From Zwartia hollandica (GTDB taxonomy: Bacteria; Pseudomonadota; Gammaproteobacteria; Burkholderiales; Burkholderiaceae_B), in contig NZ_JAHXRI010000005.1 in assembly GCF_019923725.1 (NCBI RefSeq), positions 1 through 48,876 of the forward strand: a stretch of 48,876 bases of DNA, in the 5' to 3' direction. The first letter of the stretch is position 1; every line of letters begins with the position of its first letter. The translations under genes were made by a program, and so were the position numbers. The notes under the pieces were generated by a model, which ran no database searches, had not been told where the DNA came from, and saw only the letters and a program-made list of their open reading frames with translations. Below are positions 1,486 to 32,220 of the stretch, one piece after another.

Positions 1486-2163
1486 ATGCAGGATTCTGTG
1501 CCGAAGTTTGCTTCCGGCTTTGTGCGTCGTCATGGGCTGTTTGATGCCCTGATCGCGGAGGCGGATATGGCCCTGCAGGTGCTGTCGGGATCGGTCGGAG
1601 CGAAGCGTCCAAACCCGGCGGATGTCCTGGCGCCAGATGCGCAGGCGTTAGACGCGACTCAAAAGACGCATGCGGCGGGACTCATGCGTGTAAATCATGT
1701 GGGCGAAATATGTGCGCAGGCGCTTTATCGTGGTCAGTCCGTGGTGTGTAAGGATCCAGCTTGTACAGAGCTATTGCTCGACGCAGCTGCGGAAGAGGTG
1801 GATCACTTAGCCTGGTGTGGGCAGCGCTTAGCGGAATTGAATGCTCGCCCAAGTGTTCTAAACCCCCTTTGGTATGCGGGATCGTTTGTCCTCGGCGCTC
1901 TGGCGGGTCGATCGGGCGTAGCGCACAATCTTGGGTTTATGGCAGAAACAGAGCGTCAGGTTGAGGCGCACTTGGATAACCATCTTGAGCGTCTGCCGGT
2001 CCACGATGATCGGTCTCGCGCGATTGTCCTACAAATGAAAGAAGATGAGATCAAACACCGCAAAACGGCGGAAGATCATGGGGCCTCCGCCCTAGCAGCG
2101 CCGGTCAAGGCCGTGATGCGGACCGTTTCCCGGGTGATGACGACAACCGCATACCGAATCTAG
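1486..2163 (+). CDS. coq7: Demethoxyubiquinone hydroxylase (Coq7/CAT5 di-iron monooxygenase)
   Basis: Carries out the late ring hydroxylation of ubiquinone synthesis (2-polyprenyl-3-methyl-6-methoxybenzoquinol hydroxylase) at the membrane. The 225-residue protein has the duplicated ferritin-like carboxylate-histidine motifs that hold the di-iron centre: [23 protein letters not shown], and later [12 protein letters not shown] and [13 protein letters not shown] hydrophobic stretch ([12 protein letters not shown]) fits the membrane-associated helix. The start is fixed by AGGAG a few bases before the ATG. A TAGAAT -10-like box lies at 1453-1458 without a convincing -35. It is the Coq7-type enzyme used by many betaproteobacteria rather than the flavin enzyme UbiF. 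Confidence 0.95.
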
Positions 2164-2251: not shown

Positions 2252-2280
2252 TTGCAATGCACAAAAAAATGGTTTAGTAT
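2252..2280 (+). promoter_or_regulatory. Sigma70-type promoter for candidate small RNA
   Basis: -35 TTGCAA (2252-2257), a 17-base spacer, and -10 TAGTAT (2275-2280), preceded by an AT-rich UP-like tract. The predicted start is near 2287. This is the best promoter in the 391-base gene-free stretch and points into the hairpin/terminator region, not directly at tviB. Confidence 0.55.
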
Positions 2281-2286
2281 TTGGCA

Positions 2287-2458
2287 TATGGAAGTTAAGT
2301 ACAAAGTTGTTGAAACTAAACCTGCCGAAAGCAGATAAATGTTTAAACAACGGAGGCGTCCAGAAAGCTCTCGCCTCCTTAGCTTGCCAAGCTTGTCTCC
2401 TCCACCCTCCTCCTTTGGTGGATTTAGCCCAAGACTGTAAAGTCTTGGGCTTTTTTTT
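2287..2458 (+). ncRNA. Candidate small RNA (or tviB leader) with CUCC anti-Shine-Dalgarno motifs
   Basis: Inferred transcript of about 172 nt between the promoter at 2252-2280 and the terminator at 2426-2458. Visible hairpins are CTGC-CGAAA-GCAG (2322-2334), a 7-bp stem GGAGGCG/CGCCTCC (2352-2378), AGCTT/AAGCT (2381-2393), TCCACC/GGTGGA with loop CTCCTCCTTT (2401-2422), and the 11-bp terminator. The CUCC motif recurs (2374-2378, 2397-2402, 2407-2412), one copy in an exposed loop, as in anti-Shine-Dalgarno regulatory RNAs such as the CuckooRNAs of alphaproteobacteria. No convincing ORF covers it. No match to a riboswitch class was recognised. The alternative is a 5-prime leader/attenuator of tviB, which starts about 100 bases beyond the terminator. 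Confidence 0.5.
2426..2458 (+). terminator. Strong intrinsic terminator
   Basis: Perfect 11-bp stem AGCCCAAGACT (2426-2436) / AGTCTTGGGCT (2441-2451) with a GTAA loop and a run of eight T. It ends the coq7-proximal region or the candidate small RNA. Because tviB lies downstream on the same strand, it either insulates tviB or attenuates it. Confidence 0.92.
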
Positions 2459-2554
2459 GTATAGCCTCGCTCTCCCTTATCATCATGGTTTTGGCTGGTC
2501 ACGGATAGACAGCTATTGCGCACCCCGCAGTGATGCGCCTTGTCGGAGAATATT

Positions 2555-3829
2555 TTGCGTATACAGGATGTCAATCTTGCCGTTGTGGGGCTTGGGTACG
2601 TGGGTTTGCCACTGGCTGTAGAGTTCGGTAAGCATCGGAGTGTCCTAGGCTTTGATATCAACACGGCACGTATCGATGAGCTCAAAAACGGGCATGATCA
2701 CACGCTGGAGGTCGACGACGTCGAGTTGGCCACCGCCAAACACTTGCGTTACACGGCCCAGCGCGCAGACCTTGGACAAGCCAATGTCTTTATCGTTACT
2801 GTGCCCACGCCGATTGATGAATACAAACAGCCTGACTTGACACCGTTGGTGAAGGCGAGTGAAACAATTGGGCAGGCTCTTAAGGTCGGTGACATCGTCA
2901 TCTATGAATCCACTGTTTACCCAGGGGCAACTGAAGAGGTTTGTGTACCTGTACTCGAGCGAGTCTCTGGCTTGCGGTACAACGTCGATTTTTTTGCAGG
3001 GTATAGCCCAGAACGCATCAATCCTGGTGACAAAGAGCATCGCGTCAGCACCATTAAGAAAGTCACTTCCGGGTCAACACCTGAGGTTGCGGCACTTGTA
3101 GATGCTTTGTATCGCCAGATCGTGGTGGCCGGCACGCACCTGGCACCGAGTATCCGTGTGGCGGAGGCGGCTAAAGTCATTGAGAATACGCAGCGTGACG
3201 TCAATATTGCGTTGATTAATGAGCTGGCGTTGATTTTTAACAAGCTCGGCATCGATACAGAAGCCGTCTTGCAAGCCGCCGGGACAAAGTGGAATTTTCT
3301 TCCGTTCAGGCCGGGTTTAGTTGGTGGACATTGCATTGGTGTGGACCCGTATTACTTGACGCATAAGGCTCAGTCGATCGGCTATCACCCAGAGATTATT
3401 CTGGCGGGGCGCCGGCTCAATGACAGTATGGGTGGGTATGTTGTGTCTCAGCTGGTTAAGGCGATGACACGGGAACGTATTTACGTGCAGGGGGCACGTG
3501 TGCTGGTCATGGGTTTGACCTTCAAGGAAAACTGCCCTGATTTACGCAATACACGTGTTGTTGATATCGTCAAAGAGCTTGGTGAGTACAACGTTGACGT
3601 AGATGTGTATGACCCGTGGGTTGAGGCAAAGGAGGCTGTGCATGAGTACGGCATCCATCCTGTACAGACGCTTGAAAATGGGCGCTACGATGCGGTGATT
3701 ATGGCCGTGGCACATCGACAGTTTGCCGAGCTGGGTATCGATGCGATCCGCGCATTAGGAAAACCCAAACATGTGCTTTATGACTTGAAATATATCTTCA
3801 AGACTGAGCAGTCGGACCTGCGTCTTTAA
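2555..3829 (+). CDS. tviB: UDP-N-acetylglucosamine/galactosamine 6-dehydrogenase (TviB/VipA, WbpO type)
   Basis: NAD-dependent enzyme that oxidises C6 of a UDP-HexNAc in two steps to the uronic acid, for surface polysaccharide. The TTG at 2555 is chosen because GGAG lies six bases before it; an in-frame TTG at 2540 lacks a ribosome site. The 424-residue product has the N-terminal Rossmann motif [12 protein letters not shown], the central SPERINPGD block, and the catalytic cysteine in [12 protein letters not shown] (about residue 260), followed by the C-terminal UDP-binding domain ([18 protein letters not shown]). It lies 16 bases before the epimerase gene, so the two probably act as a pair making UDP-GalNAcA. 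No glycosyltransferases or export genes are adjacent, so the polymer is assembled from genes elsewhere. Confidence 0.92.
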
Positions 3830-29874: not shown

Positions 29875-30947
<1,073 letters not shown>

Positions 30948-30948
30948 T

Positions 30949-32220
30949 ATGTTTCGCTTTTTCAAGAAAAAAACTACGCCCGTTGAGCCTCTTCCAGAGG
31001 CCCAGACCACGACGCCTGCGCCGGATCTGAGCATCTCGCAGAATACCAGTACCGAGGTCTCCCCGGATGCGGCGCAGAGCCCTCCCGTGCAGGGCCGACG
31101 CTTTATGTTGTCCCAGGCCTTATCAGGCGCCCCGCTTGGTCGCCAGACTGGGCTGCCCATTGTGTCGGCCGACATTGCGCAGCCGAGTGCGGCAGTCCCT
31201 ATTGTTTCTGTGGACGCGGCTCAACAGCCTGAAGCGCCGGCTCACGCGCCAGCACTTGAGCTGGTAGAAGACCAGAGCGCAGAACAAACAGAAGAACAAA
31301 TTGCAGAACAAAAAACGTCTTGGCTAGCCAAGTTGAAGGGCGGTTTGGCCAAAACTGGGCAAAGTCTTGGAAGTCTGTTTGTCGGCGTACGTGTTGACGA
31401 GGATTTGTTCGAAGAGCTTGAGACGGCTTTGATCATGGCCGATGCGGGCGTTGAGGCGACCGAGCAACTGATGTCGGCGCTACGTGCCCGTGTAAAACGA
31501 GACCGAATCGAAGACGCCGATGCCGTACGTCAAGCTTTGAAAGACGTGCTGGCTGACCACTTAAAGATTCTCGAAAAGCCTTTTGATGTTGGGCATGTTA
31601 AGCCGCTTGTCGTGATGATTACTGGCGTGAATGGTGCTGGCAAAACAACATCGATTGGAAAGTTGGCAAACGCGCTGCAGCAACGCGGGGCTAAGGTGTT
31701 GCTGGCTGCAGGTGATACGTTTCGCGCTGCCGCACGTGAGCAGCTAGTTGAGTGGGGCAATCGCAATAATGTTTCTGTTGTCGCGCAAGACGGTGGTGAT
31801 CCTGCTGCGGTGGCCTTTGATTCTGTTCATGCGGGTCGTGCGCGTGGCATGGATATCGTGATGATCGACACAGCAGGGCGTCTACCAACGCAATTGCATT
31901 TGATGGACGAACTGAAAAAAATTCGCCGTGTGATTGCCAAGGCTGATCCGACAGCGCCGCATGAGGTCTTACTTGTTGTCGACGGCAACTCCGGACAAAA
32001 CGTACTGTCGCAAATCCGGAGTTTTGACGCAGCGGTTGGATTAACCGGGTTGATCGTTACAAAATTAGATGGGACCGCGAAAGGTGGCACCCTGGCTGCC
32101 GTAGCTGCTGGATCCCAAGGCACACGTCCGGTTCCCGTCTATTGGATTGGCGTCGGCGAAAAAATGGAAGATCTGCAGCCCTTTGTGGCCGCAGACTTTG
32201 CGGCTGCGTTAGTAGGCTAA
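30949..32220 (+). CDS. ftsY: Signal recognition particle receptor FtsY
   Basis: GTPase that docks SRP-ribosome complexes at the inner membrane for co-translational insertion. The 423-residue protein starts MFRFFKKKTTPVEPLP, a basic amphipathic start followed by an acidic, low-complexity A domain (to about residue 115), then the NG domain. GTPase motifs: GVNGAGKTTSIGKLA, DTFRAAAREQL, IDTAGRLP, and TKLDGTAKGGTL. The frame is open from 30835, but that would overlap rsmD. No Shine-Dalgarno precedes the ATG. A TATACT -10-like box (30935-30940) lies eight bases before the ATG, raising the possibility of a near-leaderless mRNA. Its stop overlaps the CYTH-CHAD stop (CTAA). Confidence 0.96.
   Translation: MFRFFKKKTTPVEPLPEAQTTTPAPDLSISQNTSTEVSPDAAQSPPVQGRRFMLSQALSGAPLGRQTGLPIVSADIAQPSAAVPIVSVDAAQQPEAPAHAPALELVEDQSAEQTEEQIAEQKTSWLAKLKGGLAKTGQSLGSLFVGVRVDEDLFEELETALIMADAGVEATEQLMSALRARVKRDRIEDADAVRQALKDVLADHLKILEKPFDVGHVKPLVVMITGVNGAGKTTSIGKLANALQQRGAKVLLAAGDTFRAAAREQLVEWGNRNNVSVVAQDGGDPAAVAFDSVHAGRARGMDIVMIDTAGRLPTQLHLMDELKKIRRVIAKADPTAPHEVLLVVDGNSGQNVLSQIRSFDAAVGLTGLIVTKLDGTAKGGTLAAVAAGSQGTRPVPVYWIGVGEKMEDLQPFVAADFAAALVG

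Follow-up and report, generated by a model that had tools for sequence, protein, structure and literature searches.

The first 48,876 nucleotides of contig NZ_JAHXRI010000005.1 of Zwartia hollandica (here, the window) carry, between coq7 and a tviB-like gene, a gene for an S17-type small RNA (sRNA) of the Rfam family RF02278 (Betaproteobacteria_toxic_sRNA). This gene is probably controlled by PhaR, the repressor that senses the storage polymer polyhydroxybutyrate (PHB), both the binding of PhaR and the induction by PHB being predicted from the DNA sequence. The evidence comprises the family membership of the RNA, its covarying structure, a conserved operator-like motif at its promoter, the co-occurrence of this motif with phaR, and the linkage of similar RNAs to phasin and phaR genes in some genomes. 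The RNA family itself is known, and the predicted novelty is its link with a PhaR-type operator. No such link was found in the available portions of the literature searched, including PMC5688073, PMC4603805, PMC7011215, PMC10987360, and PMC12235514, and it may exist in subscription papers (e.g., on NcS27, 2019) or in supplements.

The initial annotation proposed an unannotated small RNA at this place; the sRNA is real, but its family had already been described. RF02278 matches positions 2394-2458 over its full length, with 70.2 bits against a gathering threshold of 50 (E-value of 3.1e-12 for the window). This is the only match in the genome, and further sRNA copies were discarded as a candidate, none having been found beyond it. 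As in the family, the RNA forms two hairpins, the second being the terminator (Table 1). The fold of 2394-2458 has a z-score of −6.2 and that of 2287-2458 a z-score of −5.8, neither being equalled by any of 200 shuffled sequences. In the short-form fold, the CUCC-bearing loop CTCCTCCTTT occupies exactly positions 2407-2416 and is unpaired, as had been read from the letters. When 40 diverse relatives were aligned, both sides had changed in 7 of the 12 base pairs tested, and compensatory changes are present in both hairpins. Cells with both sides of a pair changed number 43, compared with 11.0 in shuffles, and the covariation score is 0.323, compared with 0.148; none of 500 shuffles was as high by either measure. 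The 5' segment GTCTCCTC is invariant in all 40 relatives. Together with the characterized homologue S17, which acts via two single-stranded sites, the match, the covarying hairpins, and this invariant segment support a stand-alone sRNA of RF02278 with an exposed, CU-rich anti-Shine-Dalgarno sequence, as the initial annotation had inferred.

In the part of the alignment examined, the hairpins upstream of 2394, such as GGAGGCG...CGCCTCC, are not kept in relatives, and a self-sequestering role for the latter in the window was rejected on the same part. The conserved RNA consists of the final ~65 nt and a short TTGCCA stretch ahead of them. This TTGCCA-like stretch (2384-2394 in the window) is kept in most loci of the genus and family (L002-L034, in the part of the alignment examined). 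It lies just before the predicted cut site, outside the Rfam model, and is perhaps an RNase E context.

The complete promoter-to-terminator unit was confirmed. It comprises TTGCAA-17-TAGTAT and an 11-bp stem followed by eight T, the latter also retrieved by a terminator scan. A strict promoter scan asking for 9 of 12 consensus matches did not list TTGCAA-17-TAGTAT, which has 8 by our own count. Both the promoter elements and the conserved cut region expected of a long precursor are present.

Around this promoter lie two operator-like palindromes that did not figure among the earlier claims. They were scored against YTKNTGCRNYGCANMAR, the operator consensus of PhaR from Ralstonia eutropha (PMC12849132), and they also resemble the footprinted PhbF motif of Herbaspirillum seropedicae, TG[N]TGC[N]3GCAA. 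The distal and proximal palindromes are 57 bp apart. The 3.22-Mb genome contains 8 perfect PhaR-consensus sites; allowing up to one mismatch gives 99, compared with 24 for the reversed pattern. It encodes PhaR and one PF09361 phasin, so that a consensus operator at the promoter and phaR in the same genome occur together, as expected for a PhaR regulon. The DNA upstream of the phasin gene holds two such sites as well, one perfect and one with a single mismatch, at a distance of 56 bp. As a candidate target of the sRNA, the phasin mRNA itself was rejected, ranking 23rd of 45 start regions by duplex energy. Another perfect PhaR-consensus palindrome, at 30387-30403 of the window, lies where a cytidylyltransferase-like gene (29875-30387) meets a Cons_hypoth95 methyltransferase gene (30384-31175); within coding DNA, it is probably due to chance.

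All 36 relatives' loci L002-L037 (34 from the genus or family, 2 from the order) have at least one site with the exact core TGCRNYGCA upstream of the sRNA. Among 47 pairs of exact-core sites, counts to which one genus contributes many loci and some genomes contribute through both locus sets, 29 are spaced by 55-57 bp and 5 by 77-78 bp. The other 13 are spaced by 24, 104, 155, 180, 185, or 196-197 bp, the seven at 196-197 bp being mostly from Pandoraea. The two main spacings differ by two helical turns, which would place the sites on the same face of the helix.

Enrichment of the motif was assessed in a set of 80 loci, listed among 120 stretches found; L101, with 24 bp upstream, was dropped from the dyad, two-mismatch, and exact-core counts. 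Sites with at most one mismatch occur 28 times in the 300 bp before the RNA core, 24 of them at −51 to −200, and 12 times among 533,929 positions outside; for the reversed pattern, the corresponding counts are 1 and 5. When all 832 trinucleotide dyads were scanned in the 79 loci, TGC-N3-GCA came first, with 89 occurrences against 13.0 expected, in 61 loci. AT-rich dyads rank next, as expected for intergenic DNA. The centre of the dyad is also selective, R-N-Y being present in 74 of 83 sites upstream of the sRNA compared with 65 of 327 elsewhere. The exact core is found upstream of the sRNA in 59 of 70 loci, compared with 59 of 1841 windows of 300 bp elsewhere, 4 of 68 regions downstream of the sRNA, and 1 of 40 regions upstream of osmC (7485 bases in total, so less than 300 bp each on average).

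Across genomes, the presence of the site is strongly, though not without exception, associated with that of phaR. PhaR was detected in 71 genomes of this set of 80. A site with at most two mismatches is present upstream in 59 of 70 PhaR-positive loci and 2 of 9 PhaR-negative loci (Fisher p = 3e-4), as against 110 of 1841 null windows; one of these two PhaR-negative sites, in L133, is out of place. A sample of the order was selected by covariance score, and RF02278 matched 103 of its 160 genomes, 63 of them above the cut-off; a class-wide sample, in which 52 of 184 genomes matched and 2 exceeded the cut-off, was not used further. Scoring in the order covered 90 hits in 60 of the 103 matching genomes, namely 55 of the 63 above the cut-off and five PhaR-negative genomes (43-49 bits) added to widen the PhaR-negative side. 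Other matches below 50 bits were scored only for four RNAs beside phaR and for L039. This last (G013 C6:140986-141048) is a weak second RF02278-like copy in a genome of the same genus, with 39 bits and without the second CU loop.

With the two-mismatch rule, fixed before scoring, 33 of 43 PhaR-positive genomes and 1 of 17 PhaR-negative genomes have a site by their best copy (30 of 43 and 1 of 17 by the top-scoring copy; 39 of 67 and 1 of 23 by all hits). The exact core, chosen only after this result was obtained, is present in 35 of 43 PhaR-positive genomes and none of 17 PhaR-negative ones (p = 3e-9), or in 43 of 67 and none of 23 hits; by family, the figures are 15 of 18 and 0 of 8. Of the eight remaining genomes above the cut-off, one is that of the window, which has sites, and the seven others have the exact core in 4 of 5 PhaR-positive genomes (G056 having only a CGC variant) and neither of two PhaR-negative ones. 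No exact site was found in L042 (the top copy of G042, outside the order scoring) or in L043. Within family f192, where both states occur, a PhaR-positive member has the site and three PhaR-negative members lack it. Several PhaR-negative families (L214, L236, L257, L272, L273, L288, L290) have in common another sequence ahead of the sRNA, with ATATTAGA(T/G/A)AAT-like letters at its end, which may be a site of another common regulator or a strong promoter.

In genomes of two families, gene neighbourhood provides a pointer to PhaR that does not depend on the motif. G057, G364, and G400, all of one family, each have a PF09361 phasin gene divergent from phaR and, 17, 33, and 66 bp past its stop codon, an RF02278-like RNA. 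In G412, phaR is divergent from the RNA gene itself, which has two sites at a distance of 57 bp. All four RNAs have the GTCTCCTCC start and the terminator. The RF02278-like RNAs directly behind a phasin gene at L292 1074, L293 230, and L294 1590 (33-40 bits), which the phasin transcript could reach, are candidate sRNAs derived from the 3' untranslated region of phaP.

An alternative explanation is that the S17-type sRNA has a housekeeping promoter, the −35 palindrome being kept by descent or bound by another regulator, with PhaR uninvolved. That S17 of Bordetella pertussis is transcribed in vitro by sigmaA RNA polymerase alone (PMC11722255) is in line with this, as are the relatedness of the sequences by descent and the PhaR-positive lineages without a site, the binding of PhaR at the window promoter being a prediction from sequence. 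Nevertheless, a promoter has no requirement for the second half-site, which is kept together with its R-N-Y centre. The layouts also differ, as judged by eye for the promoters, with the site covering the −35 of a long-form promoter in some cases and placed at about −34, on a promoter that directly adjoins the core, or at about −90, a little upstream of the −35, in others. Its persistence through them makes the descent of one promoter alone a hard explanation. The absence of the exact core from all 17 PhaR-negative genomes of the order and from two more, as well as the linkage to phasin and phaR genes, also argue against it, and activity in vitro without any activator would be expected of a promoter controlled by a repressor. 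A housekeeping promoter without PhaR is considered unlikely.

Several observations nevertheless weigh against control by PhaR, or against the strength of the case for it. Among PhaR-positive loci, 11 of 70 have no site within two mismatches, including five of six Cupriavidus loci (L090, L096, L124, L139, L158), and the exact core is missing from 8 of 43 PhaR-positive genomes of the order (24 of 67 hits). Four Ralstonia loci (L117, L120, L127, L144) have phaR but no site in the usual place; Cupriavidus and Ralstonia may have lost the site or use a different control. Conversely, the assembly with L135 yielded no phaR, yet the site there looks genuine, and the DNA preceding the genome's own phaR gene in L047 showed no exact site. 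As the genomes are related, counts by genome overstate independence, and the family-level figures are to be read alongside them. The number of covarying pairs alone (7) was reached by 25 of 500 shuffles. The four phaR-linked RNAs score 32-40 bits, below the gathering threshold, and a search of the 350 bp preceding the RNA in G057, G364, and G400 gave no exact site. These 350 bp are mostly phasin coding DNA, and the RNA could derive from the phasin transcript, which would give control by PhaR without a site of its own.

Expression of the double-hairpin RNAs ncS03, ncS05, and ncS27 of Burkholderia is also relevant, according to the available parts of the published reports. They increase 8.0-, 6.9-, and 4.3-fold in a glucose medium poor in peptone and yeast extract, which fits control by PhaR because such a medium would be expected to favour PHB. 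The slower growth on overexpression of ncS27 fits as well. They also increase in starvation (2.6- to 3.9-fold) and in biofilm (2.9- to 9.7-fold), and two of them in osmotic stress, so that glucose is not the sole trigger.

The proposed mechanism is modelled on the phasin gene phaP1, which is repressed by PhaR until PHB granules draw the repressor away from the DNA (PMC12849132). Without storage polymer, PhaR would hold the two operators, one of them on the −35, and keep the promoter shut. With excess carbon, PHB granules would form and PhaR would leave the DNA for their surface, allowing the long transcript (~2287-2458) to be made. RNase E would then cut at about 2393/2394 to release the stable two-hairpin RNA of ~65 nt, whose two CU-rich segments would pair, presumably with Hfq, with the Shine-Dalgarno regions of many mRNAs, mainly those for transport and catabolism. 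Uptake would thereby be damped during carbon storage. Processing by RNase E, binding of Hfq, and repression at ribosome-binding sites are extrapolated from homologues.

The reading of the RNA as an attenuating leader of tviB, raised as an alternative in the initial annotation, is highly improbable. It has in its favour that tviB starts 82 bp past the terminator on the same strand, and that a tviB match begins within 1.5 kb downstream in 24 of 42 loci of a second set, mostly from the same genus. In the 80-locus set, however, this holds for only 9 loci; of the 57 with at least 2 kb of downstream sequence, tviB is within 1.5 kb in 8 and within 2 kb in 15. The neighbouring gene thus varies on the downstream side, the conserved part is an anti-Shine-Dalgarno RNA with its terminator, and the homologues are free sRNAs. 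On the upstream side, 33 of 80 and 34 of 42 loci have coq7 directly before the sRNA in the same orientation. In the 80-locus set, 57 also have an osmC match no more than 2 kb upstream, or 43 of the 50 with that much sequence. The sRNA of L154, in a record titled as a Klebsiella pneumoniae metagenome-assembled genome, is adjoined by osmC (61%) and coq7 (51%) matches, with phaR elsewhere; this assembly is likely mislabelled or contaminated.

The unit had also been described as free of open reading frames (ORFs). In fact, a 33-codon ATG ORF overlaps the sRNA and longer mechanical ORFs cross the region, but the start of the former is not conserved. A dual-function RNA that also encodes this 33-residue peptide is very unlikely: S17 too has a 32-codon ORF spanning the processing site (PMC11722255), but only 9 of 37 loci (the window and L002-L037), and 34 of 78 loci of the 80-locus set, have an in-frame ATG, and upstream of the core the reading frame is not maintained. 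A coding role was rejected on this lack of a conserved start.

Table 1. Features of the sRNA locus, in window coordinates.
Feature	Position	Strand	Basis or remark
Distal PhaR-type operator, predicted, TTGTTGCGACGCACAAA	2192-2208		0 mismatches to YTKNTGCRNYGCANMAR
Proximal PhaR-type operator, predicted, TTCTTGCAATGCACAAA	2249-2265		1 mismatch; covers the −35; kept in relatives
−35 element, TTGCAA	2252-2257	+	direct reading of letters
−10 element, TAGTAT	2275-2280	+	17-nt spacer to the −35; direct reading
Long primary transcript, predicted, ~172 nt	2287-2458	+	start inferred (to about one base), by analogy with S17L
Mature short sRNA, predicted RNase E product, ~65 nt	2394-2458	+	RF02278 match 1-64 of 64; 5' end by analogy with S17S
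Site 1, GUCUCCUCC, anti-Shine-Dalgarno	2395-2403	+	near-invariant; single-stranded, except last three bases, which pair in hairpin 1
Hairpin 1	2401-2422	+	stem 2401-2406/2417-2422; fold and covariation
Site 2, loop CUCCUCCUUU, second anti-Shine-Dalgarno segment	2407-2416	+	letters and fold
Hairpin 2, intrinsic terminator	2426-2458	+	stem 2426-2436/2441-2451 (11 bp), eight T at 2451-2458; terminator scan, fold, covariation
coq7 (PF03232), neighbour	1486-2163	+	
tviB-like UDP-sugar dehydrogenase, neighbour outside the unit	2540-3829	+	TTG start mechanical
33-codon ORF overlapping the sRNA	2339-2440	+	ATG start not conserved

Beyond the window, the RF02278, S17, and double-hairpin sRNAs of Betaproteobacteria probably form an RNA arm of the PhaR regulon, in which PHB granules, by releasing PhaR, would switch on a global anti-Shine-Dalgarno sRNA. 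If so, the state of the carbon store itself would tune translation, and lineages would have reached the same wiring by separate routes, with an operator on the −35, an operator upstream of it, or an RNA behind a phasin gene. A PhaR operator would give this widely kept family a named regulator and a physiological signal, carbon storage, and makes its regulation directly testable.

The closest characterized system is S17 (CT_433) of B. pertussis, as described in the available parts of its report (PMC11722255). Like the window RNA, it adjoins coq7, has a promoter with a 17-nt spacer (sigmaA, TTGCAT-17-TACTAT), a long form with a terminator (~190 nt, trimmed by RNase E to a stable 67-nt form), and two CU-rich sites, which match ribosome-binding regions; it differs in belonging to another species, and the window RNA has no known link to Bvg. 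S17 associates with Hfq, directly represses BP2158, and its short form, S17S, modestly slowed E. coli on entry to stationary phase (PMC11722255). A study using RNA interaction by ligation and sequencing (RIL-seq) gave four shared targets. The S17 authors postulate an unnamed repressor of its promoter (PMC11722255), and two other Bordetella loci, L094 and L103, have a PhaR-type site (2 mismatches) on the −35.

The Burkholderia RNAs ncS03, ncS05, ncS27, and ncS62 share with the window RNA the RF02278 family, the two hairpins, and CU-rich sites predicted to act over ribosome-binding sites (PMC5688073, PMC4603805). They exist in several copies per genome, as against one here, and overexpression of ncS27 slows growth. 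In the parts of the reports available, the authors working on Burkholderia cenocepacia state that the regulator of sRNA accumulation there is not known.

More distantly, NmsRb / NgncR_163 of Neisseria (RF02877) has a similar layout and matches the window over its full length (2376-2456) with 42.1 bits, below the gathering threshold of 52, and a weaker match to the Burkholderia anti-hemB RNA was seen; a wider superfamily of anti-Shine-Dalgarno sRNAs beyond RF02278 is possible on these sequence matches. The CuckooRNAs / CcsR of Alphaproteobacteria also bear CUCC in their loops, an analogy only. For the proposed regulation, the nearest precedent is MmgR (alpha-r8) of Sinorhizobium meliloti, an Hfq-dependent sRNA repressed by PhaR/AniA, whose binding to the MmgR promoter was shown by electrophoretic mobility shift assay (PMC8401924, PMC12542648). 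MmgR belongs to another bacterial class and another RNA family; if the control proposed here holds, it would be a parallel to the RF02278 sRNAs, and PhaR would be the repressor postulated for the S17 promoter.
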